Part shown: positions 31,849 through 62,078 of the stretch, piece after piece | Numbering within the stretch: the stretch's first letter is position 1 | Layout: every line of letters starts with the position of its first letter | DNA from: Loripinus fragilis | Taxonomy: Eukaryota > Mollusca > Bivalvia > Lucinida > Lucinidae | Length of the DNA stretch: 64,000 bases | Assembly (NCBI GenBank): GCA_964019695.1 | Contig: OZ026520.1 | Location: 21,900,130-21,964,129 of the forward strand | Direction of reading: 5' to 3' | Notes under the pieces: model-generated | What the model saw: only the letters and a program-made list of their open reading frames with translations | Database searches by the model: none | Told to the model about the DNA's origin: nothing | Made by a program: the position numbers and the translations under genes

Positions 31849-32126
31849 ACGACCTATGTCTTTTGAGAATGTGAATGGTGTTTATCCCCCATTCATTCCA
31901 CCACCGTCAGGCAGTGGTAGGGGGAGCTTAGGTGGACCTGGAAACATGTCACAGTCATCCGGTAGTTCTTATTCGATATTAACCAACCCATCGGCACCAA
32001 GGTCAACAATGGAGAACAGCCTGTTTAGCCAGCTAGCTAATGGTTCAGCATCAATGACTGATATAACACTGGAGCAGGCCCTAGACAAGGTGCAGGAACT
32101 AGCTGCTGAAAACATGAATTTAAGAG
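31849..32126 (+). CDS. OPTN-like: Optineurin-like exon 1 (first coding; residues 1-90)
   Basis: Begins after the acceptor TTTCTGTTGCAG, so an upstream non-coding exon must exist. ATG is at 31856. It encodes a Gly/Ser/Pro-rich leader, then the start of the TBK1-binding-like coil (LEQALDKVQELAAENMNLR). It ends at AAGAG|GTATGT in phase 1. A TA-flanked MITE starts six bases into the intron. Confidence 0.82.
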
Positions 32127-44100: not shown

Positions 44101-47100
44101 TATTACTTGAGATAGGAATCCAAAATTTGGTTGTGGATGCATCTTGAGATGGTGGAGTGTCATGAACTATTTACGGGTCACTGTGACCTTAAACTTGACC
44201 TCTGACCTAGTTTTTATGAGAATCATGAGATGGTGTCTGGAGCATATAGCCTATATTATTTGAGGTAGGAATCCAAAATTTGGTGTGTGGATTCCTCTTG
44301 GGATGGCGGAGGGGTGCATACCATTTTGGGTCGCTTTGACCTTGACTTCTGGCCTTATTTCTAGGTTGTTTGTGTCCGGAGCATGTATCTTCTTTATAAC
44401 AAATACAAATAGCTTTCCTCAAATGTGTCTTATGCTAGACCAATTCCTTTGGGGGGCATTCCTCACGTTACTGTGACATTTCTTGTTATGACTTCTGGAT
44501 CTGGTCTTAAACCCTGAAGACAGGTTTTCTCCAAAATCTTAAGACTGTAAGGCCAACCTTAAAAATATTTTTGTTTCCCCTTACCCGACCCTGTTTTACC
44601 AGTATGGGTCGGTCGGTAGGAATTTGTTTTTTTTTAATTTCTCAAATTGGATACCCATTAAACTCAATTGTATACAGTAAAGCCTGTCTTAAGAGGCCCC
44701 TCAAAAAACTTTTTTTTCACGAAATGCAGGTCAAAAGTATTGCAGAATGCTCCCACGGAGCATTCTGCAATACTTTTGACCTGCATTTAACCTTCAGGTT
44801 TTACTGTATAGTCCTACTATAGGCAATGAAATTAAATGCACAAACAATTTGCTAAGAATATTTTTTAAGATAACACTGTTTGCATTAAACAATTCTCTAA
44901 GTTTGCAATGAAATAATAAAAAAAAAAATCTTGACTGAAAATTGAAATAATTTTTTTTGAGTAGGGCCTTTTTTTCAGGGTCGGTCGGGTAAAGGGAAAC
45001 AAATAAAATTTTATTTTAGGCCTAAACATTTATCCTATGAAACCTCATTGCACATAATTTATGCGTGATTTCAGTCCATGCCATATGGTGAAGCAGATGT
45101 ACAGAACTTGAAATCCCAAGTACTGACATTGATCAAAGAAGTCCAAGAATCTTCTGCCAAGCTTACTAATACTACAAAGACCCTTGAGAAAAAATCTGCC
45201 AGGTATGTATGCAGGGGATTTTCTGCCCATCTCTAGGGGCCAATTTCGGCCCCATTCCCAATCAAAAATAGCCACCTTTTTTCCCAATACCAATTCTGAT
45301 TTTCACAATATTTTTTTTTTATTTATTTATTTTTTTTTTACTTTTTGGAGACCACTACTACTTATGAGAAACAATGACCCATATCAGAATGATACTTAAA
45401 CACTTGTGCTTAAGTAGTATGCTTGACATAATACAATCTAAAATAACTTGATTTTGAGGATATATTTTGCTACCCTTGTTATGTTCTATGTTGTTAATTT
45501 CTCCCAATTTTGATGTTAAGTAGATCATTTTGCCCCAATTTTGGCCAGGGGCCTTTTCCCAAAATTGCTGGAAAAAGCCCTGGTATGGAGGGCTTTATGG
45601 TAAGAGACTTGTGTTGAAGTGCAGTCCAGTCCCTTTCTACGCTATGTTTGGGGTCCATAGTCCATAGGAATGGACCATGATTTAAGTGAACCATGTTATA
45701 AGGGGATCAATTTGCAAAAGGAATGATAGGGATATGGTCATTTTTCTGTATTTTCTTTGTAAAATTCCATTGTAAAAATGGGAACCACAACATGACTGTG
45801 TTATATCCAAATTGATGTTGTAACTATGTTAAAAAGGGACAGTACTGTATGTGTTAAAAGTCAAGCTTAATACTTTCCAAGGGTGGAAGTTTTCAGGATT
45901 ATTCCTGAGCTCAGGATTTGAGGCTGACTTTCCAAAGAAAGTTAGTCTCAAAATACTAAATAAGGCAGGCAATGATTGCTTCTGATTTATTTTTAACTAT
46001 CTAAAGAAAAGTATTGAAATTGGTAATATTGATAGGCATGCTACAAGTTTTAAGATATGAATTTATGAAGTTCTGATAAGTTTGAACTTTGTTTCATGAC
46101 TTTCTCATTTCTATAAAAAAAAGCATGATATAGTGTTGATATCCACTTGAAATGTTTAAAACATACTGGATGTGCTGGAGATAGGGTGATAAGGTCAGCA
46201 TAGGTGTTTAACCCTTTAAGGGTCAATCACAACAAAAGTCATCTGCTTTTGTCCTCTGCTGAAATGTTCTAAAAGCCTCTTCTAAAGACAATGTTTGCCT
46301 CTATATGTATATTAGTCAAACATATTAGCAAATATATGCAGCAGACGACTCCAGCAGATGACATTTTCAGATGCTTTTTTTTTTGCTGGACCCTTTAAGG
46401 GTTAAGGTATGATTTTAGACATATGAGCATTATTATAAAAGGGTCTCAATGGGGTAACTCTGAAATCAGTAATAAGCAAAGTTTTGGCTAAAAAGTCAGT
46501 AAGCAGTAAAATTTAAGAGTAAAAATCGGTAATCAGTAAAATTTTGCAATGCCGAATTCACTAACCAGTAAAATTAGCCATCAAAATTTGCTAATCGGTA
46601 AAAATTAGGGCTGAAATTTGGTAAATTCATTAGACCCCATTGACACCCTCTTAGATGTGCTTGTCCATATATTTCAGAGTGGTAGAGTTGGAGCAGCATA
46701 TACACTTGCTTCAGAAGGATCTGGAACAAACGAAGGTTGAGGCAGAGCAGTTAATACAGTCATTGAGATATTCAGCAGCTTCTTACGAGGAGGCCTTACA
46801 GAGGGAGAGGGGCGAGCATGCAACTACAAAGTAAGAACACTAACCTATTTTCTAGTACCTTTAGCCTATTAAAGGCCTCCAGATAAGAGTGACTTATTAA
46901 AAATATTTTTTAAAATTTTGTTATTTCTTAACCAAAACATAATAATTGAGCTGTGACATGTGTTTTCCAACAATGTGGCATTTTGACATAAATAGACTCA
47001 GACATGCCTGTGCAGTCTCCTGTTAAGCTTAGAAACTCCAAATACTGTTCCGTCAGTAACTTAACAGTCATTTAATGTTTTAAGCCACTAGCTCTGATCA

Positions 47101-50100
47101 GACTGCCTGTATGCGCAGGCTGGTCTGAGACTTTGCTGGTTGCACATACCACATTGTTGGAAATCTCATGTCTCATGTGTGTACTCAAAAGAACTGTCTT
47201 AATTAAATGAGACAAAAGGACTTTTTTCTGTATTCTGTACTAATGGAAGTTTTTAACTCCCAACTTTTAACTTGGAGGTGATGGGGGAAGGAAACAACTT
47301 CAAGGACTCCTCCTTGTATGTATACAATTCCAAGGTTTGGCTGCCATTAAAAGAATTTTTTTAATGTTTCTGAAATAAAATGTCACCAGCTGAGGTGACC
47401 AACTGTCTTTACCAAGAACTATAATACCAGCAGTAGATGACTTAAAAACCCTAGATTTTGTCATATATACGTGACATTTTATGGCTGGCATTACAGAAAG
47501 TTTCTTAATTCTCAACCCAAACATATATTGTGGGTACTCAAAAAAGAACCATATCCATGAGATGGTTCTTTCGAGCACCCAAAACTTGTATTTTGACTGA
47601 AGGATAAGAAAATAATCCGAATTTTATACTCCCCAAACATTTGTTAATCTGGACCAATGTTATATACAAATATATCAATCGGGTAATTCCGGGTTAATTT
47701 GAGAATCAAATCAAGCCTTAGGTGTACGTAAGGCGCGTTACGCATAGTACTATGTACTAAAAAGCTCCATTTTTTTAGCCGGAACTGGTGTAAGGAAAAA
47801 TAGTACTGTAGCATCATGGTCCATTCCTATTAAATCCATTATTTATATCACCCCAAACGTTTTATCAACAGAATAGATTAAGTTAATGATTTTTCAATAA
47901 AATTTTGCTATTGCAATATTTTGTTGAAAAAACATAAACTTCGTTTATAACAGTTCGTTTTTGCTGCAATCAGACTTGTTATTGGGGAGCGCAGTGGCTC
48001 AGTGGTAGAGTGCTTGACTCGAGACCAAAGGGCCGCTGGTTCAAGCCTCACCGGTGTCACTTTGTTGTGGTCTTTGAGCAAGACACATTTATCCTAGCTT
48101 AGTACTGGTTCAACCCAGGAAGACACGTCCCTATATAACTGAAAGATTGTTGATGGGACGTAAAGAATCAAATCAAACAAAAAAACAAACAAACACTTGT
48201 TATTATGTTGGCATGGTTTCTGTGACATCAGCGTCATGTTATGTAACGTCAGCCTCACGTTATCAAAGTATATCCTCGATGTACATCCGAGGGCTGATTC
48301 GGGAATCAGCCGAGGCAGTTCCAATGGACAGATACATATATATTTTGTCCAGTATAACAGTACATATTTTCTTCTTTACAGAAAACAACTAGTTGAGCTG
48401 AGAGCATCATTTAACCAGCTAGTGGGTGACTATAAAGATCTTCTAGACACTTTTGATGATTACAAGGCCCACCAGCAAACACAGGTACTACATTTTCCAA
48501 TATTGGTTAACCCTTATCCTGCCAAGATTTTTATCCACCGACGAAGTCGGAGGGATATAGTTTTGGCGTCGTCCGTGCGTCCGTCCGTCCGTCCGTCCAT
48601 TCCGTCCGTCCGTCCGCATTTTTTGTCTGTCCGGAACCATATCTCAGTACCTATTGGTCAGATTTAATTCATTCTCGGTACAAATGATTAGTACCATGGA
48701 CTCTTGATATCCTATAAGTTTGGTCAAAATCGACCCCTTAACACTTGAGTTATTGCCCTTGTTTAAGTATAGGCAATTATAAGGCAAAACCTATATTAGC
48801 TTTTTATACCCCGCCACACTTTAGTGTCGGGGTATTACGTTATACCTTTCGGTGTCTGTCCGTCTGTCCGTCCGTCCATCTGTCCGTCCGTCCGTGCTCA
48901 CCATTTCCGATCGATAACTTGAGTATTTGTTCACGGAATTTTTTCAAATTTTGCATACATATTGTTATTGGCGATGAGTGGTATGGGATTGTTAATGGGC
49001 AAAATCCGTCCATTTTTCACGGAGTTACTGCCCTTTTTTGTATTGGAAAAATGGTTTCTGGCCTGTTATTCCTTTACTGTTCATGATATCTGAATGAAAC
49101 TTCACAGATATGTTGCACATAAAAGGTTACATATTGTGACTAAGGACCTTCACTCTGACCTTCCCAGTTTGTGAGTTATCCGCCCTTGATAGGTCTGAAA
49201 AAAGGTTTTTGACCTATTGTTCCTTTACTATATGGAATATCTGAATATAACTTCACAGATATGTTTCACATCAAAGGTAACATATTGTGACTAAGAACCG
49301 TCACTCTTACCTTTCCCGTTTGTGAGTTATCCGCCCTTGATTGAATTAAAAAATGTTTTGTACCCGTAGTTCCTTTACTATGTGGAATATTTAAATGAAA
49401 TTTTACAGATATGTTTCACATCAAAGGTTACATACTATGACAAAGAACCATCACTCTAACCTTTCCAGTTCATGAGTAATCTGCCCTTGATTGATCTGAA
49501 AAATGGTTTTTGACCTGTTGTTCATTTACTATATGGAATATCTGAATGAAACTTCACAGATATGTTGATCATCATAGGTTACATATTGTGACTAAGGATC
49601 GTCACTCTTACCTTTCCAGATTGTGAGTTATCCACCTTTGATTGATCTGAGAATTGGTTTTTGGCCTGTAGTTTCTTTTACTATATGGAATATCTGAATG
49701 AAACTTCACAGATATGTTGAACATCAAAGGTTACATATTTTTAGTAAGGACTGTCACCCATACCTTTCCAGTTCATGAGTTATCCGCCCTTGATTGATCT
49801 GAAAAATGGTTTTTGACCTGTAGATCATTTACTATATGGAGTATCTGAATGAAACTTCACAGATATGTTGACCATCAAAGGTTACATATTGTGGGTAAGG
49901 ATCATCACTCTTACCTTTCCAGATTGTGAGTTATCCACCCTTGATTGATCTGAGAATTGGTTTTTGACCTGTAGTTCATTTCATCTGTCCGTGCTCACTG
50001 TTTCCGATCGATAACTTGAGTATTTATGCACAGAATTTTTTCAAATTTTGCATACATATTGTTATTGGGGATGAGTGGTATGGGATTGTTAATGGGCAAA

Positions 50101-53100
50101 ATCCGACCATTTTCAATGGAGTTACTGCCCTTTCTCCCTTTAAAAAATGGTTTCTGGCCTGTTATTCTTTTACTGTTTATGATATCTGAATGAAACTTCA
50201 CAGATATGTTGAACAGCAAAGGTTACATATTACAACGAAGGACCGTAACTCTTACCTTTCCAGTTCATGAGTTATCCGCCCTTGATTAATCTGGAAAATG
50301 TTGTTGACCTGTAGTTCCTTTACTATATGAAATATCTGAATGAAACTTCAAAGATATGTTGACCATCAAAGGTTACATATTGTGACTAAGGACGTCATAT
50401 CACTGTCTATCTCAGTTCTGTTGCTATTTAGGCATTATATATCTCACAAAATAACTTTTGGTGCCCCCAGCAGTGGCGGGGTATTATGCAGTGCTTGCGG
50501 TGCTTTTATTTGTTTGATGATCTTCACATTTCATCAAAGCTATTATATTTAACAACTTCTCGCTATAGACCATGATTGCCAAGTGCCTGTAGATAAGAAT
50601 GGCAGTGTCAAAGTTTTACCCCACCCCCTCTGACCCCAACTAAGGGGTCAAAGGTCAAATATTTAAATTTCGCAATAACTAAGGCAATTATTAATATTTT
50701 TTGCTGAAATTTTGCATGCAGGCAGAGCAGCAATAGATATGAAACATATCAAACGGGATTTCAGTTTGATGGCCTGATTCAGAGCTCCTTTGGTGGACTT
50801 AGGGGGTGGGGCCAAGGCCAAAATTTAACTTTTTCAGAATATGGTCATGTTGCATATCAAATTAAAGCTGACGACGCTGGCAGCACCATGGTAGCAAATA
50901 TTTTGCCCACAGACACACCCTCGACCCAGGGGGTGGGGTCAAAAGGTCAAACTATATATTTTTCTGAAAGAAGTCATGTTGCATATCAAATTAAAGCTGA
51001 CGACGCTGGCAGCAACATGGTAGCAAATATTTTGCCCACAGACACGCCCTTGACCCCTGGGGTGGGGTCAAAAGGTCAAACTATATCTTTTACTGAAAGT
51101 AGTCATGTTGCATATCAAATTAAAGGGAATTGAGCACAGAGCACCATGAAAGCAAGTGTGCTGTCATTACACACACCAACGACCCCTGGGGTGGGGTCAA
51201 AGGGTCATTTTTGTTCTTTTCTAAAAGTGGTCATGTTGCATATCAAAGTAAAGTGGAAGAAGTGTAGACCTACATGCAAGGTAATACTTTGAATTTACAC
51301 ACAATCTTGACCTCTGGGGTTGGGTTTAAAGGTCAGATGTTGAAATTGTGCAGATGTAAGTATATTTTTATTGAACTAAGCACCAAAACATACTTGACAG
51401 GTGTTTGTTATGATCTGAATGATACTGAAGGTGAAGTAAGGGTTAGATAAATGGGATTTATGTTTTTTGATTTACATGTTTCTCTCAAGTAACCCTTCGT
51501 CGGGGGATATAAATTCGTCGAATTTGCCTTGTTTATCCTGAAAATGCTGTCTGCTTTTTAGTTATGCTGCATATATTGAATTGCACTTCAGACTAGATTT
51601 TATTATGGAAGCAAACACTATGAGCCCTGATCAGACTGCTCCATCAGGGAGCAGTCTGATCTGGGTCCATATTGTCAAGTGAGCAGACAACAAAAGTCAT
51701 GACTGGCGGGAGAAGGGTTAACACTTTCTTGAATTGACTCTTCTGTGGAGATTGAAGAAACAGATCACCTCTAGCAGTGAATTGTTGAGTAATAATTCAC
51801 TGTTTGCAGGTCAGTTGTTAAGAAGATCAAATCACGAGCGTGTAGCGTGAGTGATTTATCTTTGTACATGTACAACTGACCGACAAACAGAGAATGATTA
51901 CGCAGCAATTCATGCACTAGAGCTGATCTATTTTGATTCTAACACACATTAAATGATAAAAACACATTTGAAGCCTTCAGCTTCTTCCAACTTTACGCCA
52001 TTGCACTGAGGAAATCCCGCCAATAGTTGGACTGTGTTACATACATTTACATGTATTTGTAAGGTCTTTCAAGTGTGAAAACGATGTTACATTGTCTAAC
52101 GCCATGACTGACGTCATTTTGCAGTAACAAATGACGTCAGCTAGTGCACATTTTCCTCACGCTTTCAAAACTGTGAACTATTGTTTGATATATCATGTTT
52201 TTTTAGCACTGACACTATAGGCAAGGTGTGTTAGAATAATACAATAATGTTTGGATGACCCCTTATATACATTGAATGTCACAGTTTAGAATTTCATGCT
52301 TACTTTGTTTCTCTGTCCTTGATTCTTTATACCTCACCTGAGCACCTCATCATGGTCAAGGTGAGTTTTTGTGATGGTTCAGGCTAGATGTACAGCATCG
52401 GATAGCATCTCACCATCTGTCTGTGTCTATCTATCAACAATGCCGGGCCGCGTAACGCAGTCGGTAACGTGTCTGGCTACAGATGCGTGTCTGACTGCAG
52501 ATCCAGGGGTCGCGAGTTCGATCAAGGTCCGGTCCCATACTTTCGTGGAGATTGATCATGAAATGATTTCTACGGTCATTTTCCTCCTTCCGCTGATTCA
52601 TTCAAGAAGGGTTGTTGTCAGTTACAAGTGAAAGTATGTGCACGAATTACTGGTTAACCGCTTGTTCAAGCCTGCCCAGGAAAAGTGTGGTTAGGTGAAC
52701 TGACCGTCCCGCAATGACCATAGCTGTTGACTTGGGACGTAAAGCAACAAAACAAACAAACAAATCTATCAACAGTTGCTTCTTAGGTCATCTCTTCTTG
52801 GGAAGAATTTCTGCTACCCAAGGAGAACTCCTGTGAAGTTTGTGAAATAATTTCACAAACTTCACACAAGAATGATTGTCCTGTTGTAAAGATTTCAACT
52901 CATGTAGAATCCTGATTGCCATGGTATTCAAAAGAAAGAAAAAAGCTTTAAAAATCATCATTTAAAAAATAAATGGCTCAATTCGAAAATAATTTGGCAC
53001 GAACAGTCCTTGGGGTGAGCATTATCTGGTTCTAAATTTTTGCAAAGCATATAAGGAGCAATGTTTGTTGCCATTGCCACTAGTGGAGAAAGATAAAATT

Positions 53101-56100
53101 TAACAATAAATTAACTCTTTGTATACTGCAAAGTCTTAAACAGGTACTTTTACATACAAACAGAGAAGACCCATATGAAATGCTACATAAGGGTCTACAA
53201 TGTTTTTGAGGTGAAAAAAAATCTTCAGACATAAAATATAATATTATTTGAAAACTATAACCTGACATCCCTAGACCATCCCAAGTTTATTGTACCAAAC
53301 CAGAAGGAGGAATCCTTTAATATACAAAGGATTAAGAGCATAAGATAACAGATTAACCCTTTGCATACTGGAAACTCCTAAACAGATACATTTACAAACA
53401 GCAAAGACCCAGATGAAATGCTGCATAATGCAGCATTTCATCTGGGTCTACACTGTTTGTTAAGGTAAGAAAAATATTGAACAATTTCAGGTTCAGCCAG
53501 GAGGTCAGAATAAGCAGATGATGGATGACATCAATCGTCTCACAGCTCAGACAATAGCTGCTGAAGAAGCGATAGCATATAGAGATGATCAGATTAAGAA
53601 ACTGAAAGATGAAAATCTGAAGATGAAAGATGAGATTGATAATACAGTGCCAACACTGAAAGCACAGGTAGGTGATTGACATTACTGAAAGCACAGGTAG
53701 GTGATTGCCAATACTGAAAGCACAGGTAGGTGATTGACAATACTGAAAGCACAGGTAGGTGATTGACATTACTGAAAGCACAGGTAGGTGATTGCCAATA
53801 TTAAGCACAGGTAGGTGATTGCCAATACTGAAAGCACAGGTAGGTGATTGACAATACTGAAAGCACAGGTAGGTGATTGACAATACTGAAAGCACAGGTA
53901 GGTGATTGACAAAACTGAAAGCACAGGTAGGTGATTGCCAATATTAAGCACAGGTAAGTGATTGACATAACTGAAAGCACTGGTAAGTGATTGACAATAC
54001 TAGTAGCACTGGTAAGTGATTGGCAATACTGAAAGCACTGGTAAGTGATTGACTATACTGAAAGCACTGGTAAGTGATTGACTATACTGAAAGCACTGGT
54101 AGGTGATTGACAATACTGAAAGCACAGGTAGGTGATTGACAATACTGAAAGCACAGGTAGGTGATTGACTATGCTGAAAGCACAGGTAAGTGATTGCCAA
54201 TACTGAAAGCACAGGTAGGTGATTGACTATGCTGAAAGCACTGGTAAGTGATTGACAATACTAGTAGCACTGGTAAGTGATTGGCAATACTGAAAGCACT
54301 GGTAAGTGATTGACTATACTGAAAGCACTGGTAGGTGATTGACAATACTGAAATCACAGGTAGGTGATTGACAATACTGAAAGCACAGGTAGGTGATTGA
54401 CTATGCTGAAAGCACAGGAAGGTGATTGCCAATACTGAAAGCACAGGTAGGTGATTGACAATACTGAAAGCACAGGTAGGTGATTGACAATACTGAAAGC
54501 ACAGGTAGGTGATTGACAATACTGAAAGCACAGGTAGGTGATTGACAATACTGAAAGCACATGTAGGTGATTGACAATACTGAAAGCACATGTAGGTGAT
54601 TGACATTACTGAAAGCACAGGTAAGTGATTGACAATGCACAGGTAAGTTTGATTTGATTCTTTACGTTCCATCAACAATCTTTCAGTTATAAAGGGACGG
54701 GTCTTCCTGGGTTTTAACCAGTACTAAGCTAATTTTATGTTCTTGCTCAAGGACACAACGCAGTGACGCTGGTGAGGTTCAAACCTGCGACCCTTCAGTC
54801 TCCAGTCAAGCACTCTACCACTTAGCCACTGCGCTAATAAGCACAGGTAAGTGATTGAAAATACTGAAAGCACTGGTAATTGATTGACATTACTAAAAGC
54901 ACATGTAAGTGATTGAAAATGCTTCAAGCACAGAATAGAGATTGCCAATACTGAAAGCACAGGTAAGCAAAGCACAGGATAGAGATTGCCAATACTAAAG
55001 GCAGTGGTTAGAGATTGCCAGTACTGAAAGCACCGATAAGAGATTGCAGATAGTCGGGTACTGAAAGCACTGGAAAGATATTGCCATTATTGAAAGCACT
55101 GGTATGAAAGCACTGTAGGAGATTGCTTGAGGTCCTATGCAACCAATGGACAGTTCACATGCGACAGCCTGGATAAGATAACATTGGTCGATTTATTGAT
55201 TTTCAATGGGGACAGTAAAACCCCAACCCAAGGGCCCACCATTCCAGTGGGAAACCCTGCCTATAATGCCCATGAGGGTGCCATGCAGTGTATAGAGATA
55301 GATTGAAACAAGACTTGCCGAGTTTCCTACTTGAACTATGGGCCCGAGGGTTTGGATTTTCCTGTTCCCATTGAACACCAATGATCAATTCTTTTCCTCA
55401 CATACCATCCAATTTAATATTTGGCGGTGTACTGTATAATATTTGTTGTTTTTCTTCAACATTACATGTCACTGAATTGATGCAGTGGAATTTACATATA
55501 TAACCAAAAATATCACAAAAAGCAATCAAACAGCAATTTAAACAATGAAAATGTTGTTCATCAAAATGGATATACAAGTACAACCTAACCAACAACAGTA
55601 AGTAAATTTGCATGTCATGTGTTGAAGAAAACCACTTTCTTTTCACGTCAGCACAACTCTGGGACGCAACTACTCCTTGTACTAGGCGACAAAATTGGTC
55701 AACTGAGCCATGACATGTGATTGCAAACAATGTGGCAGTTTGACAAATGCAGACTCAGACCATCATGTGCAGCCTCCTTTTAAGCTCAGAAACTCCAAAT
55801 GATGTTCAGTCAGTAGCTTAACACTCATTGAATATTCAAATGACTAGCAAAGGCTATGATCAGACTGCGCGTATGCGCAGACTGATCTGAGGCTTTGCTT
55901 GTCTTACATACCACATTGTTGGAAATCATATGTCACGGCTCAATTCACAATGCAGTTAATATGTTCAAAGCATTCAAATAAATGTTTGAAGAAAAATTAC
56001 CCAGTTTATACCATGTCTATTTTAATCGTTGAAATTTCAACTTTGAAAATTTTCCTAGTGTCGAAGAAAGGTGAAGTATACAGTGACGTGCCTAAAGTGT

Positions 56101-59100
56101 CCCTTGTCTAGGTTACTGACCTCATGTAGCTTGTCCTGTATTAGTATTGCTTTTCCCACATAAGTAACTATTTGTGACAGGCTTTGATGACAGCGAGCTA
56201 ACATAAGGACCACCCTATCTTGAAGGTATTGGTATGTGAGAAAAGAAATTCTATCCCAGGCTAAGGGAGTGCAGTGGCTCAGTGGTAGAATGCTTGACTT
56301 GAGACCGAGGGGCTGCAGGTTCGAGCCTCATCGGCGTCACTGAGTTGTGTCCTTGAGCAAGAACATTTATCCTAGCTTAGTACAGGTTCAACCCAGGAAG
56401 ACCCATCCCTTTATAACTGAAAGATTGTTGATGGGACTTAAAGAATCAAATCAAACAAACAAACAAACTACCCCAGGCTAAATTCTTAGATATTCTTATC
56501 AATTGTGCAAGAAATTCTCTTCTTGCATACTTGTTAAGGATATCTGATATTTTATCCTAGGATAAAAATTCTTATCTTACCCAGGCTGTCACATGAAGGC
56601 TGTACAATGGTTGTATTGGAATTCGCGCACATGGTCGTCAATGGCATCATTTTATATCAAGATGACATCATCATGTAATAATGCATCTCAGCGTTTTCAG
56701 GGATTTTTATAAGCTTATTTTAAAATAAACAGTCAATGGTGGGCAGGAAAAATAATCCATATTTGTGTGAGGGGGGTGGGGGGGGGGGTAGAAAAATCTG
56801 TCCTTCAGGATCACTGTTTGCCATCACTCGGCAAGCCTTGTGATGCCTAATGGTGATTCTGGGGACAGATTTTTCTTCAGGATCATCATTTTTCATCAAT
56901 CGGCATGGATTCTTATTTTATCTGGAGTTTGGAATTAATAAAATCCATAATGAAATAAAATGCCTTCAACTCTGTATACCAGGCCTTTAGTTAAGAGTGT
57001 GTACCAAAAAATAATGTTCGTATTTCTCAACCAAATCATATGTTGTGGGTACTCAAAAGAACCGTCCCAATGAGACGGTTCTTTTGAGCACACACAACAA
57101 ATGCCAAAACTGATGACTAAGAAAAGTATTTACAATTTTACGCTAAAAAATTTTGCTTATCTAAACCTGTGGTATACATGTTGTTTTAGGCTGATGTATG
57201 GAAGCAAGATTTTGACGCAGAAAGAAATGCCAGAGAAAGGCAGGTGCAAGAGAAGGAGGGTATTCTCCAAGAAATGAAAAATCTACAGACACAGAACCAA
57301 CAGTTATTGGACGAAATTGAAACTTACTCCCGACGTTCTCTCGCCGAGATGCAGCGTCGGCACGTCCCAGCATCCCATCAGCAACAGATGCAGGCATATT
57401 TGCAAGGGAATCAAGGTGGTGGATACCAGCCACAGTATCCTCAAGCTCAGCCCCAGTATCCACCAGGTCAGCCCCATTATCCACCAGGTCAGCCACAATA
57501 TCCCCCAAGTCAGCCCCAGTATCAGCAACAACCGCCAATTGTGTATCCTCATCCCAACTCACCACAGGAGCAACCAAGAGGTGAAACCACAGTCAGACCA
57601 CCGCCATCACCAGTACAGGTATGAGTCTTTTATACTGCGTCCAAGGCTCCTAAAACTGTTAACCCTTAAAGCGCCAGCAAAAACAAAATACATTTGAAAA
57701 TTACATCTGCCTTTGTCATCTGGTGTATATGATTGCTTGGACATAATAAACACGGACTGGTCACTTACATACAGGTAAATGTATATATTGGAAATACGGT
57801 GTCGTGGCTCAACGATGGCTGAGCTTTCAAAACTGACGTGTGTTGAAGATTAAATTATATCTCCATTATTTCTCTGCATATCTATGTTTTTTTTTCAAAA
57901 AGCATTGGCTCAATATGCTCTCTTTAAGACTGTGTTGTTGTATTTATTGAAAGCGTATTCGTCTCTATGAACATCAGCAAGAAACCTAGGTACCCTTTTT
58001 AGCTATTTTCGGCACTTTTAGCCGAAAATCGTCAGAAATCAACATAAAAAGATGAGAAAACTTAAATTCTTTTTACTGTTACTCGTAATATTTCATCTTC
58101 GCATACCGGGAGTAACCTCTTATAATCTTGTGTATGTTCAGAATCAATTTTATTGGCTTTAGTACTTTGAAAAAGCGCTAAAATAAAGCCACGACAACAT
58201 AACTTTGTATTTCCGTCAGTGACCAGTCCGTTTATACTGGGTCCGAGATATTTGCTAAGATTATTGACTAATGTAAGTATAGAGGCAAACAGTGTGTACC
58301 TAGAGGAGCAGTCTGATCTGAGTCTACACTGTTTGACTAAGATCTGGGTCTACACTGTTTGACTAAGAGGCTTTTAAAACATTACAGCAGATTTGAAAAG
58401 CAGACAACTTATGTTTAAGTTGGGGCTTTGAGGGTTAAGGACCTCCTGAAAAACAAGGCAAATTCGACGAATTTATATCCCCCGACGAAGGGTTATTTGA
58501 GAGAAACATGTAAATTACAAAACATAAATCCCATTTATCTAACCCTTCTTGCACCTACAGTATCATTCAGATCATAACAAACACCTGTCAAGTATGTTTT
58601 AGTGCTTAGTTCAATAAAAAAATATACTTATATCTGCACAATTTCAATATCTGACCTTTAAACCCAACCTCAGAGGTCAAGATTGTGTGTAAATTCAAAG
58701 TGTTACCTTGCATGTAGGTCTACACTTCTTCCACTTTACTTTGATATGCAACATGACCACTTTTAGAAAAGAACAAAAACCTTTTGACCCCACCCCAGGG
58801 GTCGTTGGTGTGTGTAATGACAGCATACTTGCTTTCATGGTGCTCTGTGCTCAATTCTCTTTAATTTGATATGCAACTTGACTAATTTCAGTAAAAGATA
58901 TAGTTTGACCTTTTGACCCCACCCCCTGGGTCAAGGGTGTATCTGTGGGCAAAATATTTGCTACCATGTTGCTGCCAGGGTCGTCAGCTTTAATTTGATA
59001 TGCAACATGACTACTTTCAGAAAAATATATAGTTTGACCTTTTGACCCCACCCCCTGGGTCAAGGGTGTGTCTGTGGGCAAAATATTTGCTACCATGTTG

Positions 59101-62078
59101 CTGCCAGCGTCTTCAGCTTTAATTTGATATGCAACATGACCATATTCTGAAAAAGTTTAATTTTGGCCTCGGCCCCACCCCCTTAGTCCACCCAAGGGGC
59201 TCGGAATCAGGCCTTCAAACTGAAATCCTGTTTGATATGTTTCATATCTATTCCTGCTCTGCCTGCATGCAAAATTTCAGCAAAAAATATTAATAATTGC
59301 CGTAGTTATTGCGAAATTTAAATATTTGACCTTTGACCCCTTAGGTGGGGTCAAAGGGGGTGGGGTAAAAGTTTGACACTGCCATTCTTATCTACAGGCT
59401 TTTGGCAATCATGGTCTATATTGAGAAGTTATTAAATAAAATAGCTTTGATGAAATGTGAAGATCATGACACAAAAAAGCTAATATAGGTTATGCCTTAT
59501 AATTGCCTATACTTAAACAAGGGCAATAACTCAAGTGTTAAGGGGTCGATTTTGACCAAACTTATAGGATATCGAGAGTTTATGGTACTAATCATTTGTA
59601 CCAAGAATGAATTAAATCTGACCAATAGGTACTGAGATATGGTTCCGGACAGACAAAAAGTGCGGACGGACGGACGGACGTAGGCCCAATATTGAATATC
59701 GGGCCAGTCTATAAAGGGCCATTTATAAGGGGCCAAGTGTCCAAAATAACGGGCCAGTTTAGCTCCAAATTGGCCTGTTAATATCAGACTGACAAATTAC
59801 TACGGACCATTTCCAGTTTGGACGTCCATCACCATAGACATAAAATGGCCCTTTTTAAGAAGTTTATTTTATTACCTCCCCTGAGGTCCCCTGAATCATT
59901 TGAGGCAACTTACAGAGGGCCATGGCCCCTTGTTAAGAAATGGCCCCTTATCTATCTCCAGACGACTAAAAAGGCCCCCAAATCCATATCAGTAGCACGG
60001 ACGGACGGAATGGATGGACAGACGCACGGACGACGCCAAAACTATATCCCTCCGACTTAGTCGGGGGATAAAAATACATGCATCCTTTTGGACCTTAAGT
60101 ATAGCTTTGAATGCAACTGATTGATTTACGCTGATTCACAGGAAATGCCTTGATTTAGGAGATCCTTTTGCACATTTGCAGTACTTATCCCTTGTCCTGT
60201 TGATTTTTTATGTACTACACTCTTCCCCAATTTTTTTATCTTGTAGACCTGCAGTATCCAATTGTAAGCATGTACAGTAAAACCTGTGTAAAACAGCCAC
60301 TCTATAAAAGACCAAAATTGGTTTTCAAGACTAATTATCGCGAAATGCAGATCAAAAGTGTTGCAGAATGCTCCAAGGGGAGTATTCTGCAATATTTTCG
60401 ACCTTCATTAAGCTACCATTTGTCATTAAGATCTTTGTTTTGTCTATTTTTGAGTAACGGTTTTACTCAGGTTTTACTGTATATTCAATCAGAGTGGAAA
60501 ACAATTTGGCTCCTGATCAGATGGCTACATCAGAAGCCAGCTGATCTGGATCTAGAGTGTTTTAAAAAAAAAAAAAGGATAAAAGGGGGTTCAGTAAGAC
60601 AAGGGTTAACAAATGAATAACCTCGGTATTGGTGTCCAAAAGATCAACTATATTCAGCCAGTCACCATTAAAACATTTTAACAGACTGAGAGAAATATCA
60701 TAATTCTGTGCAGAAAACAAGTAAAACATTTTAGTTGATCACCAAATTTTTTGATCATCTAGGATTGATCACCCTATTGACCACCTGAGTTTTGATCTAG
60801 GCAGTACTTCCTCAAATGACACTTTTTAAATGAACCATTCGCCATGGTCTAATGAGTTACTTACACAAATCATCAGCTTGTTGAATGTGAACATTGATGA
60901 AAGATGATTTCACCAAACAGTGACAAATGAGTCTCATGATAGATGTTGGTTTATTTATTTACCTGTTTACCTGTATTTTCTTGCATTTTGTGGCATCTTA
61001 TCAACATCTGCACTGCTATTGATCCTGATCTAGATTTAACTTTTTTGACAATTTTATGGTACTCCCTGCAAAAATCTAATATATTGAATTCTAAAAAATA
61101 TTTTCTGAAGATATTTCTGAAAAAATAAAAAATATTGCAGAAACAAGACTGCATGTTAAATTACCCAGAATGCATTTAATGTAAAAAAATGATTTCAACC
61201 CAGGCCCCAGGTTATAAAACTTTTTTCATGCTCAACTGAGCACGAAATTTATCCTGCTCATTAATGTTAAAATGCCAACAATTGTTGACATTTTAACATT
61301 AATTAGCAGGATAAATACACCAACAAAGAGTTTGACAGCAAGAAGAATTATTATTTTTCAGCATTTTAGATTTAACCCTTAATGCGCCAATCACAACGAA
61401 AGTCGTCTGCTTTTCTCGTCTGCTGAAAAGGTTCATAAGCTTCTATGGCAAACAGTATAGACCCGGATCAGACTGTTCCCATAGGAGCAGTCTGTTCTTG
61501 GTCCTCGCTGTTTGCTTCTATACTTAATTCATCAGAAATGCTAGGCAATCATTAGCAGCAGACGATTTCAGCAGACGACATTTTCAGATGCATTTTTTTC
61601 CTTGGCCCTTTAAGGGTTAATTTGCATTTGAAAATATATGCTCAGCTGAATTGAGTGCACAAAAAGTTTTATAACCTCGAAGCCTGGCCCCAAGGTTATA
61701 AATCTTTTTTCATGCTCAACTCAACTGAGTACGAAATTTCAACTGCTCATAAAAACTTAAATACCAACAAATGAAGAAGTTTTTTGCTTTACGTCTCCTA
61801 GATGTTGTATTTATCATGCTAATAAATGCTAAAATGCCAACAATTGTTGGCATTTTAACATTAATGAGCAGGATAAAGTTCGTGCTCAGCTTAGTTAAGT
61901 ATGAAAAAAGTTTTATAACCTCAAGGCCTGGTTTGATATATTGCAGCCCCATTCTCAGCCCAGCAGTAGCAGTCACCAGGAAGATGGGGAGACACAGATG
62001 ACTTGTCCTAAATGTGGAATGAGCTGCCCTGACCTTGACACCTTACAGATTCATGTCATAGATTGTATTGATAATTAG
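31856..62078 (+). CDS. OPTN-like: Optineurin-like protein (optineurin/NEMO family), eleven coding exons
   Basis: Predicted adaptor binding ubiquitin chains in NF-kB/TBK1 signalling and selective autophagy. Coding segments: 31856-32126, 34892-35076, 38540-38674, 41105-41638, 43125-43292, 45075-45202, 46678-46830, 48382-48484, 53491-53667, 57190-57618 and 61947-62078. All have GT/AG ends and matching phases; 2415 nt, 804 residues. The N-terminal coil (71-115) aligns with the optineurin TBK1-binding coil: E85 and L89 match human E50 and L54. Coiled coil fills about 70-660. The UBAN motif is at 619-640 (VWKQDFDAERNARER); D625, F626 and E629 match human D474, F475 and E478. RRSLAEMQRRH (666-676) also favours optineurin over NEMO. 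A Pro/Gln/Tyr repeat follows (699-729), then the C2HC finger C781, C784, H797, C801. It is longer than human optineurin (577) or NEMO (419). No canonical LIR is evident; YSML at 297-300 is a weak candidate. Confidence 0.87.
32132..32288. mobile_element. TA-flanked MITE (CAGTAAAACC family), copy 1, at the exon 1 donor
   Basis: Terminal inverted repeats of about 38 bp begin CAGTAAAACCTGTCTTAAGC, with TA on both sides, typical of Tc1/mariner-type non-autonomous elements. The left TA overlaps position +6 of the exon 1 donor (GTATGT). Other copies are at 36131, 44673 and 60273. Confidence 0.8.
32340..32935. mobile_element. FB3 region: large palindrome with conserved flank, copy 2
   Basis: 32772-32929 is a 157-bp palindrome starting TACTTTAGTAACTTGATCTG. 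The flank 32340-32770 carries TGACGTCATCAAAA-type repeats (32627-32650) and TATGTAGGTATATAATAAA, shared in opposite order with 8450-8600. Confidence 0.6.
32967..33187. mobile_element. TTAA-bounded MITE (CTCTTTGC family)
   Basis: Ends TTAACTCTTTGCCTGCC and GCATGCAAAGAGTTTA are inverted, with a GGACCCAGATCAAGCCC/GGGCCTGATCTGGATCC core. TTAA borders suggest piggyBac-type mobilisation. Confidence 0.55.
33964..34050 (-). mobile_element. Truncated SINE family A (copy 2)
   Basis: Matches the 3' half of SINE A in reverse (CATCAACAATCTTTCAGTTA, GGGTTGAACGAGTACTAAGC). The rest of the SINE is replaced by the adjoining 35-bp array. Confidence 0.7.
34040..34640. repeat. 35-bp minisatellite in optineurin-like intron 1 (about 15 units)
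   Basis: The unit is TCTCTGGAGGTCTATGCAGG plus TCTAGGTCAGAGTAT. Starts at 34148, 34183 and so on to 34603 are evenly spaced by 35, with less regular units at 34050 and 34109. The seed looks like the SINE A interior. A period-3 variant order (CTTGG, GCCTAGG) suggests recent higher-order copying. Confidence 0.92.
34892..35076 (+). CDS. OPTN-like: Optineurin-like exon 2 (residues 91-152)
   Basis: After the acceptor TTTGATTGCAG the exon starts AA, completing a split Glu codon, and ends GCGCAG|GTAAGG in phase 0. It encodes the remainder of the TBK1-binding-like coil (EYLKENNESVKKQFNVLKDW) and further coiled coil to EAQ. A foldback MITE begins about six bases past the donor. Confidence 0.85.
35082..35325. 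mobile_element. Foldback MITE FB2, copy 2, at the exon 2 donor
   Basis: Starts GCCTGGCCCAAGCTTATAAA, the same end as copies at 61200 and 61686. The core palindrome is GTTAAAATGCCAACTATTGT. The insertion lies immediately inside intron 2. Confidence 0.65.
35423..35562. mobile_element. Foldback MITE FB4, copy 2
   Basis: Arms GGTTCATGGAATCCTGAATA and complement TATTC/ACTCATGATTCCATGAAC, closely matching 1713-1862 but with a shorter loop. Confidence 0.65.
36131..36337. mobile_element. TA-flanked MITE, CAGTAAAACC family, copy 2
   Basis: Left TACAGTAAAACCTGTGTGAA, right GTTTTACACAAGTTTTACTT; the last bases have drifted. Internal CAAAAGTTTTGCAGAATGCT is common to the family. Confidence 0.7.
36395..36602 (+). 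mobile_element. tRNA-derived SINE family A (copy 3)
   Basis: Head GGGGTGCAGTGGCTCAGTCG (A box), B box in GCCAGTTTGAGTCTTAC, body GTCCTTGAGCAAGACACTCT, tail ending (AAAC)n. Confidence 0.8.
36619..37094. mobile_element. CAGGG-terminus DNA transposon, target duplication GTTTG
   Basis: Inverted ends CAGGGCCTTTTCTCC and TGGAAAAGGCCCTG are flanked by GTTTG (36614-36618, 37095-37099). The interior has ATTCCCAATC and TTTCCC-rich blocks shared with 45212-45582. There is no transposase. Confidence 0.75.
37100..37900 (-). mobile_element. SINE A relic (copy 4) interrupted by a ~630-bp palindrome-bearing insertion
   Basis: SINE A 3' part lies at 37105-37200 and its continuing middle at 37833-37895 (GTGTCTTGCTCAAGGACACA). 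The segment between them starts with a palindrome, ATGTAGGATAGAGA/TCTCTATCCTACAT (37219-37335). AGAATA occurs at both break points. Confidence 0.5.
38083..38482. mobile_element. Foldback element upstream of exon 3
   Basis: Ends CAGGGATCAAATTTAGCACT and (complement) CAGAGATCAAATTTAAGATT. It is rich in TTAGCAAGTG repeats. A second palindrome (GTGTAGCTCCAGATCAGCCA) sits inside at 38220-38285. It ends 58 bp before exon 3. Confidence 0.5.
38540..38674 (+). CDS. OPTN-like: Optineurin-like exon 3 (residues 153-197)
   Basis: 135 nt, phase 0 at both ends, acceptor GTTTATACAG, donor GACACT|GTAAGT. Coiled coil: LEELQNRIRNLEEEKDRTQ and ILRQKVEELKGN. Confidence 0.83.
38849..41104. other. Optineurin-like intron 3, non-coding
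   Basis: Long chance frames here lack any recognisable domain. 40615-40940 contains three HP hairpins (GTACTCAAAAGAACTGTCTC and complements at 40630, 40765 and 40895), i.e. a cluster of the hairpin family. Confidence 0.5.
41105..41638 (+). CDS. OPTN-like: Optineurin-like exon 4 (residues 198-375)
   Basis: 534 nt, phase 0 both ends, acceptor TTTTTTTCAG, donor ACTATG|GTGAGT. It holds an acidic start (KLTDDDDFSLKL), long coiled coil, a non-coil linker MKHSIGGAGQEVYKAYDYSM (280-298) and a second coil. YSML (297-300) after an Asp is a possible but weak LC3-interacting motif. The intron that follows begins with the same eight bases as exon 5. Confidence 0.87.
43125..43292 (+). CDS. OPTN-like: Optineurin-like exon 5 (residues 376-431)
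   Basis: 168 nt, phase 0 both ends, acceptor CTGTTTTTAG, donor AAGAGC|GTAAGT. Coiled coil (SKLQAQLQEKDQMLNHYKQQ, ELFKQLDGLNSELQHAKS). Its 3' half and donor are partly duplicated in tandem just downstream. Confidence 0.85.
43191..43648 (+). repeat. Tandem partial duplication of exon 5 and its donor
   Basis: The authentic unit (43191-43314) is followed by a short piece (43315-43353), a fuller copy (43354-43486), a third (43487-43596) and a stub (43597-43648). Copy 2 still encodes KVTNVHRRQQLEMFKQFDNL but its donor is mutated (GCATAAGT). Copy 3 keeps a donor at 43575 (GTAAGT) but is internally deleted. A donor at 43575 would add 282 nt, in frame length, but with a stop at 43419. These copies are pseudo-exons. 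Confidence 0.85.
43650..44410. repeat. ~110-150-bp satellite units rich in TGACCT half-sites
   Basis: About five to six diverged units carry TCACTGTGACCTTGACCTCT, GTCTGGAGCATAT, AATCCCAAATTTGGTGTGTG and GCATCTTGGGAT in order. A single unit sits at 4808-4935. The family repeats the nuclear-receptor half-site TGACCT. Confidence 0.75.
43665..44208. promoter_or_regulatory. Array of nuclear-receptor half-sites (TGACCT)
   Basis: DR1 TGACCT-C-TGACCT at 43665-43677 and 44196-44208. DR0 TGACCTTGACCT at 43801-43812 and 43941-43952. Triple TGACCT-TGACCT-C-TGACCT at 44045-44063. The complement contains TCAAGGTCA, the extended ERR/NR5A-type half-site. It is within optineurin-like intron 5. Regulatory activity is inference only. 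Confidence 0.35.
44673..44818. mobile_element. TA-flanked MITE, CAGTAAAACC family, copy 3
   Basis: TACAGTAAAGCCTGTCTTAA left, TTCAGGTTTTACTGTATA right. The core is a near-perfect palindrome TTGCAGAATGCTCC/GGAGCATTCTGCAA. Confidence 0.75.
45075..45202 (+). CDS. OPTN-like: Optineurin-like exon 6 (residues 432-473)
   Basis: 128 nt, acceptor GTGATTTCAG, donor TCTGCCAG|GTATGT, ending in phase 2. Encodes DVQNLKSQVLTLIKEVQESS coiled coil. A CAGGG-terminus transposon begins nine bases into the intron, its target duplication overlapping the donor. Confidence 0.83.
45212..45582. mobile_element. CAGGG-terminus DNA transposon, target duplication GTATG, at the exon 6 donor
   Basis: Ends CAGGGGATTTTCTGCC and GCTGGAAAAAGCCCTG. 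GTATG flanks at 45207-45211 and 45583-45587; the left copy overlaps the donor hexamer GTATGT (45203-45208). Related to 36619-37094. Confidence 0.75.
45583..46677. other. Optineurin-like intron 6 with a TTAA MITE
   Basis: 46208-46405 is a TTAA-bounded foldback element, with ends TTAACCCTTTAAGGGTC and GGACCCTTTAAGGGTTAA and interior CAGCAGACGAC-type motifs. 46495-46620 has diverged CAGTAAAATT repeats. No exon was seen. Confidence 0.55.
46678..46830 (+). CDS. OPTN-like: Optineurin-like exon 7 (residues 474-524)
   Basis: 153 nt, acceptor CATATATTTCAG, donor ACAAA|GTAAGA, phase 2 at both ends. Coiled coil (VVELEQHIHLLQKDLEQTK). Confidence 0.83.
46872..47215. mobile_element. HP hairpin element interrupted by foldback FB1 (copy 2)
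   Basis: HP left half at 46872-46944 (CAGATAAGAGTGAC...AAAACATA) and right half at 47176-47215 flank an FB1 copy (about 46945-47175), with its CCAACAATGTGGCA / TACCACATTGTTGG ends. Shows the order of insertion: HP first, FB1 later. Confidence 0.6.
47984..48194 (+). mobile_element. tRNA-derived SINE family A (copy 5), intact
   Basis: A box TGGCTCAGTGGTAGAGTG, B box CTGGTTCAAGCC, body GGTTCAACCCAGGAAGAC, tail (AAAC)n. Flanked by the perfect 10-bp duplication ACTTGTTATT (47974-47983, 48195-48204). Confidence 0.9.
48382..48484 (+). CDS. OPTN-like: Optineurin-like exon 8 (residues 525-559)
   Basis: 103 nt, acceptor CTTCTTTACAG, donor CACAG|GTACTA, phase 2 to 0. Encodes QLVELRASFNQLVGDYKDLL, aligning with the conserved FxQLxxxYDN-like coil shortly before UBAN in NEMO/optineurin. 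Confidence 0.83.
48806..50512 (+). mobile_element. Pearl/HINE-like element P2, copy 2 (composite), nested in P1
   Basis: Starts ATACCCCGCCACACTTTAGT, then a CCGT microsatellite, then about six core monomers (GGTTACATATTGTGAC at 49120-49880). At 49985 the sequence restarts at CCGTGCTCACTGTTTCCGAT with two further monomers, so it is a tandem composite of two P2 units. Ends with CAGTGGCGGGGTATTATGCA-like sequence. Confidence 0.7.
50645..50657 (+). promoter_or_regulatory. DR1 motif in P1 copy 2
   Basis: GGGTCA-A-AGGTCA, conserved with 7019-7031. DR2-type GGGTCAAAAGGTCA follows at about 50937 and 51066. Confidence 0.3.
51537..52439. other. Optineurin-like intron 8 remainder, no exon seen
   Basis: Includes a CAGACTGCTCCATCAGGGAG palindrome (51604-51680) and a second inverted stretch around 51790-51900 with TCAGTTGTT/ACAACTGA. 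The 11-bp target site of the following SINE ends the interval. Confidence 0.4.
52440..52763 (+). mobile_element. tRNA-derived SINE family B (copy 2), intact
   Basis: Head GCGTAACGCAGTCGGTAACG, B-box-like GGGTCGCGAGTTCGATCA, body shared with 2576-2889, tail (AAAC)n. Flanked by the perfect 11-bp duplication ATCTATCAACA (52429-52439, 52764-52774). Confidence 0.9.
52775..53490. other. End of optineurin-like intron 8 with a palindrome before the exon 9 acceptor
   Basis: 53353-53463 carries TTAACCCTTTGCATACTG and a palindrome AGATGAAATGCTGCATAATG/CAGCATTTCATCT. It ends 27 bp before exon 9. 53080-53330 contains a related, decayed copy. Confidence 0.45.
53491..53667 (+). CDS. OPTN-like: Optineurin-like exon 9 (residues 560-618)
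   Basis: 177 nt, phase 0 both ends, acceptor GAACAATTTCAG, donor GCACAG|GTAGGT. Encodes coiled coil leading into UBAN (IDNTVPTLKAQ just before ADVWKQDF of exon 10). The 3'-terminal ~17 nt plus the donor seed the 29-bp array that follows. Confidence 0.87.
53651..54648 (+). repeat. 29-bp splice-donor minisatellite following exon 9 (35 junction units)
   Basis: The unit is GTAGGTGATTGACAATACTG plus AAAGCACAG, i.e. the exon 9 end (CACTGAAAGCACAG) joined to its donor and first intron bases. Donor-like junctions start at 53668 (authentic), 53697, 53726 and on to 54643; I count 35, of which 34 keep GTAGGT or GTAAGT and one (54418) is GAAGGT. Two units are 27 bp and one is 22. A block of about eight variant units (GTAAGT, CACTG) is itself repeated (53954-54127 and 54186-54359). 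Continuing in the exon frame, every unit reads VGD then TGA, so any decoy use truncates before UBAN. Confidence 0.95.
54649..54838 (-). mobile_element. tRNA-derived SINE family A (copy 6) inserted in the splice-donor array
   Basis: Reverse SINE A (TTTACGTTCCATCAACAATC; head complement CACTTAGCCACTGCGCT). Both sides read GCACAGGTAAGT, so the target was an array unit. The apparent 12-bp duplication cannot be told from the unit itself. Confidence 0.85.
54839..55120 (+). repeat. Decayed continuation of the 29-bp splice-donor array
   Basis: About nine further units, increasingly diverged: CAGGTAAGTGATTG, CACTGGTAATTGATTG, CACAGAATAGAGATTGCC, CAGTGGTTAGAGATTGCC. Only the first few keep a GTAAGT donor. 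This is the old edge of the array. Confidence 0.8.
55700..55945. mobile_element. Foldback MITE FB1, copy 3
   Basis: Ends TGAGCCATGACATGTGATT and (complement) TGAGCCGTGACATATGATTT. The inner palindrome is GATCAGACTGCGCGTATGCG. The terminal repeats are about 30 bp. Confidence 0.7.
56265..56471 (+). mobile_element. tRNA-derived SINE family A (copy 7), intact
   Basis: Head GGGAGTGCAGTGGCTCAGTG, B box GCAGGTTCGAGCCTC, tail (AAAC)n. Flanked by the 10-bp duplication CCCAGGCTAA (56255-56264, 56472-56481). Confidence 0.9.
56482..57189. other. End of optineurin-like intron 9
   Basis: Has a poly-G tract (56768-56788), a diverged direct repeat (GACAGATTTTTCTTCAGGATCA type at 56800-56900), and an HP hairpin element (56985-57172) whose end lies 17 bp before the exon 10 acceptor. 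Confidence 0.5.
57190..57618 (+). CDS. OPTN-like: Optineurin-like exon 10: UBAN motif and Pro/Gln/Tyr repeats (residues 619-761)
   Basis: 429 nt, phase 0 both ends, acceptor GTTGTTTTAG, donor GTACAG|GTATGA. The UBAN core is ADVWKQDFDAERNARER; its D-F-x-x-E-R-x-x-R-E pattern binds linear/K63 ubiquitin in NEMO and optineurin. RRSLAEMQRRH and QQQMQAYLQG match the optineurin segment between UBAN and the zinc finger. Then a 21-bp in-frame repeat, QPxYPPG, runs four times (about 699-729). This Pro-rich linker is longer than in the human proteins. Confidence 0.9.
57619..58440. other. Start of optineurin-like intron 10; TTAA-bordered repeat
   Basis: From 57658 (GTTAACCCTTAAAGCGCCAG) to 58437 (GAGGGTTAAGG), the outer ends match the TTAA MITE family. 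The interior is enlarged, with an inserted block (about 57740-58250) that starts and ends with GGACTGGTCAC / GTGACCAGTCC inverted repeats. Probably a nested pair. Confidence 0.45.
58455..60075 (-). mobile_element. Pearl/HINE-like element P1, copy 3, with a ~315-bp insertion in its microsatellite
   Basis: Reverse orientation: right end AAGGCAAATTCGACGAATTT at the start, left end CCGACTTAGTCGGGGGATAA at 60047-60068. The ACGG microsatellite is split (59664-59681, 59997-60010) by a segment rich in GGGCCA repeats (59682-59996). Confidence 0.75.
59327..59339 (-). promoter_or_regulatory. DR1 motif in P1 copy 3
   Basis: TGACCT-T-TGACCC, the complement of the motif at 7019 and 50645, so it is kept in all three P1 copies. 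Confidence 0.3.
60273..60481. mobile_element. TA-flanked MITE, CAGTAAAACC family, copy 4
   Basis: TACAGTAAAACCTGTGTAAA left and TACTCAGGTTTTACTGTA right, with the family interior TTGCAGAATGCTCC. Confidence 0.75.
60482..61199. other. Optineurin-like intron 10, no exon seen
   Basis: 60495-60560 is a short palindrome of the GATCAGATGGC/GCCAGCTGATC type. The rest is AT-rich without recognisable coding or repeat structure. Confidence 0.35.
61200..61682. mobile_element. Foldback MITE FB2, copy 3, containing a TTAA MITE
   Basis: Outer ends CAGGTTATAAAACTTTTTTC and its near-complement AAAAGTTTTATAACCTC. At 61372-61620 a TTAA-flanked element (TTAACCCTTAATGCGCC ... GGCCCTTTAAGGGTTAA) is inserted. Removing it restores the FB2 interior (GCATTTTAGATTTAATTTGC). 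Confidence 0.75.
61686..61928. mobile_element. Foldback MITE FB2, copy 4, next to the exon 11 acceptor
   Basis: Ends CCCCAAGGTTATAAATC and GTTTTATAACCTCAAGG; the core palindrome TGCCAACAATTGTTGGCA is perfect. It ends 18 bp before exon 11, so the element supplies much of the acceptor's upstream context. Confidence 0.7.
61947..62078 (+). CDS. OPTN-like: Optineurin-like exon 11: C2HC zinc finger (residues 762-804)
   Basis: 132 nt including TAG, acceptor GATATATTGCAG, phase 0. Encodes TCPKCGMSCPDLDTLQIHV followed by IDCIDN. Zinc ligands are C781, C784, H797 and C801, as in the NEMO/optineurin ubiquitin-binding finger. C788 is an extra cysteine. This is the most diagnostic part of the gene. Confidence 0.93.
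   Translation, partial: PHSQPSSSSHQEDGETQMTCPKCGMSCPDLDTLQIHVIDCIDN

Follow-up and report, generated by a model that had tools for sequence, protein, structure and literature searches.

A minisatellite built from an exon-intron junction in an optineurin/NEMO-like gene of the lucinid bivalve Loripinus fragilis

The name mirage was given in amphioxus to tandem repeats of the Adh3 gene that extend across an exon-intron boundary; such repeats were later described in globin genes (PMC3087553). According to that report, the Adh3 data together with RT-PCR on the globins suggest that regular splicing is undisturbed, although some of the copies could serve as cryptic sites. The authors who described the PGBD5 mirage state that the Adh and TnC mirages do not interfere with regular splicing either (PMC3902484). 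In human segmental duplications, some internal tandem repeats sit on the border between exon and intron, and such repeats are reported to be able to change splicing (PMC2812944). In a human minigene carrying a mutation of VWF exon 44, a single competing cryptic site favoured retention of the intron, and motifs placed at other positions had no such effect (PMC8706089).

We analysed a stretch of 64,000 nucleotides of the Loripinus fragilis genome (hereafter the window) and found in it a long array of this general kind. As in the amphioxus mirages (Adh3, BflGb6 and BflGb9, with TnC and PGBD5 by later report), its units span an exon-intron boundary, many of them keep the AG/GT signal, the array lies beside the authentic junction, and its interior is homogenised with the edges excluded (PMC3087553, PMC3902484). 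The clam belongs to a different phylum, and its array holds about 46 units of 29 bp, whereas the BflGb6 haplotypes are described as having units of 150-160 bp, 6 in one and 3 in the other; the Adh3 units are given as 10-72 bp. Moreover, the three cases that we found in the clam are all 5' junctions, whereas both kinds of junction are described in amphioxus. The human repeats are likewise minisatellites (average unit 30 bp), some of them at exon-intron boundaries. They have 4 repeats on average, however, and were recognised, with transcript evidence, as differences between paralogues in the form of novel introns (PMC2812944), whereas the clam array is known from DNA alone. VWF (PMC8706089) and the detained intron of OGT share with the clam array the presence of donor-like sites, and are described as cases in which such sites interfere with the authentic donor; in VWF the site is single and intron retention was measured, whereas in the clam there is an array and any decoy effect is hypothetical. 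The VNTRs of ABCA7 and of TERT intron 6 (38-bp unit) are intronic minisatellites tied to splicing or isoforms and, unlike the clam unit, are not known to be duplicates of their exon's splice junction. In the open-licence literature, we found no earlier report of a junction minisatellite in bivalves.

The array lies in a gene that we modelled on the plus strand at 31856..62078, using tblastn with the related proteins P0001 and P0002 and the Pfam domains of P0001. The model has 11 coding exons, ten GT-AG introns and a single intact frame of 804 amino acids, and P0001 aligns with it exon by exon. P0001 carries the NEMO N-terminal (2.1e-05), CC2-LZ (1.8e-19) and zf_C2H2_10 (4.6e-12) domains. Through these domains, the gene shows the combination of CC2-LZ/UBAN and C-terminal C2H2 zinc finger that characterizes the optineurin/NEMO family, in support of the optineurin-like host proposed by an earlier sequence-only reading of this DNA. 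The best PDB matches of P0001 are to the coiled coils of NEMO (3.9e-13) and optineurin (3.5e-07), and its zinc finger scores better with optineurin (4.5e-07) than with NEMO (1.2e-05). By similarity, the coiled coil thus favours NEMO and the zinc finger optineurin, and we name the gene optineurin/NEMO-like. The best matches among named proteins are from the bivalves Mercenaria, Mactra, Dreissena and Mya. A protein of another species, P0007 (79% identity across 41% of the query), terminates with KKISKSC near the border of exon 6, possibly because of an alternative 3' end or a retained intron.

Exon 9 (53491..53667, 177 nt, phase 0/0) codes for VQPGGQNKQ...VPTLKAQ and was delimited by tblastn with P0001 and P0002, by its GT-AG borders and by the 804-aa frame. 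Exon 10 (57190..57618), placed by tblastn, reading frame and Pfam, opens with the remainder of CC2-LZ (ADVWKQDFDAERNARERQ...), which we take to be the UBAN core. The joint between the two exons matches the junction AQ|AD of the related proteins, and these proteins together with the intact frame confirm the exon 10 acceptor that had been read at 57190. The acceptor of exon 9 has a pyrimidine fraction of 0.38, the lowest among the ten acceptors of the gene (range 0.38-0.88). A fold-back element with a predicted stem of 21 bp lies at 53405-53460, about 30 nt before the start of exon 9 (the 311-nt segment around the stem has a z of -6.75); since similar inverted elements occur in several of the sampled loci, it is probably a MITE.

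The array begins within exon 9. TRF called it at 53651-54636 (period 29, 34.1 copies, 91% matches, score 1559), with further calls at 54839-54967 and 54969-55047, and unit-by-unit segmentation resolved 35 units at 53648-54653, in agreement with the 35 copies counted previously. Unit 1 (53648..53676) consists of the last 20 nt of exon 9 and the first 9 nt of intron 9, with the donor of the model at 53668. In this register, each unit joins 20 exon bases (closest form TGCCAAYACTGAAAGCACAG) to 9 intron bases (GTAGGTGAT); the unit is indeed the end of exon 9 with its donor, as had been proposed, but the exon part is longer than the roughly 14 bases then assigned to it. Segmentation also bears out that 34 of the 35 units carry GTAGGT or GTAAGT. 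The exception is unit 27 (GAAGGT), leaving 33 of the 34 units of 53677..54653 (units 2-35) with the hexamer, and CAG precedes the hexamer in 23 of the 35. There are 19 distinct sequences among the 35 units, and the mean identity is 0.907 between neighbours and 0.877 at a lag of 11 units. A run of similar units recurs (units 13-18 and units 22-26), a pattern that either genuine turnover or a mis-join might produce, and the copy number is that of one assembly. Rfam and tRNA searches of the array region returned no matches. On the minus strand of 53677-54653, the reverse complements of units 2 and 3 each read ACCTACCTGTGCTTTCAG, which is acceptor-like.

The array had been thought to end at 54648. 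At this point, however, it is split by a SINE (54649..54840, minus strand as judged by eye) inserted within a unit, and 11 decayed or partial units (units 36-46, about 54841..55123 by segmentation) follow. A direct repeat of 12 bp, GCACAGGTAAGT, borders the SINE on both sides and was read by eye at 54637-54648 and 54841-54852. A similarity search of the genome (1.99 Gb, 685 contigs) found at least 39 further copies of this segment that are 90-93% identical (39 of the 41 matches listed), and tRNA prediction called none at the segment. Because the SINE sits inside one unit with GCACAGGTAAGT on either side, the array was probably once continuous. Beyond it, the identity of units 36-46 to the consensus falls to 0.59-0.86; the GTAGGT/GTAAGT hexamer is kept in 2 of the 11 and GT in 7, and a strong CAG|GTAAGC lies within this tail at 54963. 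On its anatomy, with exon bases (20 nt) and intron bases (9 nt) from a single junction combined in each unit, the AG/GT signal kept in many units (34/35, and 2/11 in the tail) and concerted evolution inside the cluster with the edges excluded, the clam array reads as a large new case of a known kind of repeat, the mirage.

We then asked which came first, the exon or the array. The end of exon 9 codes for PTLKAQ; among the relatives that could be aligned (14 of 32 hits), A-Q is invariant in 14 of 14, and P and L are found in at least 90%. This conservation indicates that the sequence was exonic first. The units also preserve an older state of the exon. Where exon 9 has ACA (threonine), they have ATA, with T at -14 in 32 of the 34 units 2-35 and the full isoleucine codon in 25 of the 34. 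Units 3, 7, 20 and 28 spell VPILKAQ whole, and the exon's C at -14, present in unit 1, is absent from all of units 2-46. Since P0001-P0003 also have isoleucine at this position, the array copies an older form of the exon end. On this sequence evidence, exon 9 seeded the array and not the reverse. The right end of the array reads GTAGGAGATTGCTTGAGG, and the corresponding exon sequence is AGTGCCAA; a slip between the TGC words of the two, 29 bp apart, would probably have yielded the 29-bp unit, in a model built on the present right end of the array in place of the ancestral intron.

What would such a series of donors do to splicing? Using a donor matrix and the U1 sequence, we obtained a U1 pairing energy of -12.6 kcal/mol for donor 53668. 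By energy this donor is stronger than the other nine donors of the gene, and its matrix score (6.86) is second to that of the exon 2 donor (8.14). Among units 2-35, 21 of the 34 decoys equal it in U1 energy, in support of the previous statement that dozens of near-equal donors crowd into 1 kb. The plus strand of 53668-54653 contains 23 sites scoring at least 6.8 with this matrix; in 200 kb from other parts of the genome, the density of such sites is 0.085 per kb. At a threshold of 4, there are 32 sites in the array and 22 in a 986-bp stretch starting at L017:44; donor-dense arrays are therefore not unique to the optineurin/NEMO-like gene. Also in L017, near the window, a 24-bp minisatellite at 191-591 (unit TACCCCGGAAGTGGTAAGGTCAGT) supplies many donor-like sites.

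The sequence-only reading had each unit read Val-Gly-Asp and TGA in the exon frame. As 29 is not a multiple of 3, this does not hold for every unit; its further claim, one and the same truncated product from every decoy, stands for a different reason. The start of unit 2 forms a single in-frame TGA at 53677-53679, and splicing at any downstream donor would add VGD and stop there. The predicted product has 621 of the 804 residues, without the exon 10 part of CC2-LZ and without the zinc finger. A stop upstream of later exon junctions makes a transcript an expected target of nonsense-mediated decay (NMD). As exon junctions follow this stop, the decoy transcripts would be such targets under the general rules, as had been anticipated. 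The intact 804-aa frame over 11 exons requires donor 53668, which must then be used often enough, and we infer from this frame and from the related proteins that 53668 is the main donor. Recursive splicing at CACAG|GT was considered and set aside for lack of evidence; the pyrimidine fractions of the pseudo-acceptors of units 2-35 (0.31-0.50) and of the ten acceptors of the gene (0.38-0.88) overlap.

If the decoys were under selection as donors, their donor columns might be expected to vary less than the rest of the unit. We moved a block of nine columns through all 29 rotations of the unit and ranked the position of the donor among them. With ties counted against it, the donor of the array takes rank 20 of 29 for variant cells (16 to 20 over the ties) and rank 13 of 29 for states, and in the tail it takes rank 27 of 29; the nine donor columns are thus not specially conserved. 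Well-kept columns are also found outside the donor, such as the GAT that follows it and the TG that opens the following unit. In the five-column core GTA.GT of units 2-35, 1 of 170 cells is variant; the core takes rank 3 among the 29 rotations for cells and, ties included, rank 7 for states, which leaves room for a weak donor-specific constraint. Donor-specific selection is therefore not supported for the nine-column donor and is weak for the core. Homogenisation followed by neutral decay is what would leave the donor pattern seen in the array and its tail.

The array is also not alone in its surroundings. In the same gene, the end of exon 5 with its donor is present in three copies (43193..43621, plus strand, by self-BLAST and tblastn), with last exon bases at 43292 (the junction of the model, GTAAGT), 43464 (ATAAGT, the GT lost) and 43574 (GTAAGT). 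In another gene, on the minus strand, TRF found an array with a 99-bp unit at 3717..4172 on a predicted ankyrin exon (4172-4064; Ank_4 6e-08 for its 36-aa translation in Pfam). Each unit joins the last 78 nt of the exon to 21 nt of intron, and all 4 junctions read GTGAGT. An in-frame stop follows the first donor in this array as well. Two further junction duplications in one window suggest a general mutational process. Tandem arrays of period at least 10 make up 13% of the window and 9.3% of a further 200 kb (100 kb adjoining the window and 100 kb drawn from ten other contigs), about 10% of the 264 kb examined, and with such coverage no excess of junction arrays is shown. By self-BLAST, 2 of the 10 donors and 0 of the 10 acceptors of the host gene lie in local duplications. 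Under a different criterion and in a 10% sample, weak GT sites have a local copy in 179 of 2336 cases (7.7%, window included), and the other donor-score bins in 24/255 (low), 90/382 (middle) and 4/40 (strong), window included. Outside the window, local copies are commoner at middle-scoring donor-like sites (39/242) than at weak ones (115/1700); many sites of the former kind come from the 24-bp minisatellite of L017. We do not claim an enrichment of junction duplications, because at least 2 in 10 has a chance of about 0.19 and one of the two donors is the array itself. Two arrays with a period of 151 bp, about 40 kb apart (9145-10002 and 49046-49981), have consensus units that look by eye like mutual reverse complements.

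We consider it quite probable that the array is a boundary minisatellite of the mirage type, formed by slippage and exchange, which persists because its upstream-most copy is the real junction. In this scenario, a slip of 29 bp between TGC words of exon 9 and intron 9 would have duplicated the junction, and unequal exchange or further slippage would have expanded it to about 46 units and would keep its 5' part homogeneous, with decay in the 3' part past the SINE. Splicing at donor 53668 would give the normal protein, the products of downstream donors would all end at the same early stop and probably be degraded, and the repeats would have no selected role. In the competing view of the sequence-only reading, copy number tunes the level of functional protein: the array would be a rheostat in which the decoys compete with donor 53668, a set fraction of transcripts is lost to degradation because it ends in VGD-stop, and the amount of full-length adaptor depends on how long the array is. 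The equal U1 pairing of 21 of the 34 decoys, the little-varied GTA.GT core and the stop after residue 621, ahead of the exon 10 part of CC2-LZ, are all consistent with it. The last of these is, however, a common feature, since introns usually have an in-frame stop shortly after the donor. Furthermore, the nine donor columns show no special conservation, the tail is decayed, and other junctions nearby are duplicated. As for precedents, the competing cryptic donor of VWF promoted intron retention, motifs elsewhere having no such effect (PMC8706089), and human boundary repeats are reported to change splicing (PMC2812944), whereas amphioxus mirages are reported as harmless to regular splicing (PMC3087553, PMC3902484). 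We therefore regard copy-number tuning as unsupported, and the rheostat as unlikely. It is a rather slim prospect that the array acts specifically as a length-tunable U1 decoy that sends a set fraction of transcripts to one NMD-bound isoform; were this true, its length would determine how much of an innate immunity adaptor of the NEMO/optineurin type is made, and could change fast in clam populations.

Conversely, the downstream U1 sites might help splicing by making exon 9 easier to define. Its acceptor is the poorest in pyrimidines in the gene (0.38), its 177 nt could be skipped in frame, and a 21-bp hairpin is predicted some 30 nt upstream of it. P0001-P0003 nevertheless include exon 9 with no sign of alternative use, and donor 53668 is strong by itself, which makes such a helper function very unlikely in our view. 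Finally, tandem arrays are sometimes mis-assembled. The 19 distinct units among 35 and the SINE with its direct repeat inside the array speak against an assembly artefact here, and an artefact would leave the duplications at exon 5 and at the ankyrin exon unexplained; we find this explanation highly improbable. With the mirage thus preferred, such minisatellites would extend from amphioxus to a mollusc, in the form of one long array and two shorter ones within 64 kb, and duplication of splice junctions may be frequent in repeat-rich invertebrate genomes. The array would then offer a natural test of splice-site choice where the spliceosome meets dozens of 5' sites that are nearly identical, and of the proposal that duplications of AG/GT contribute to the gain of introns.
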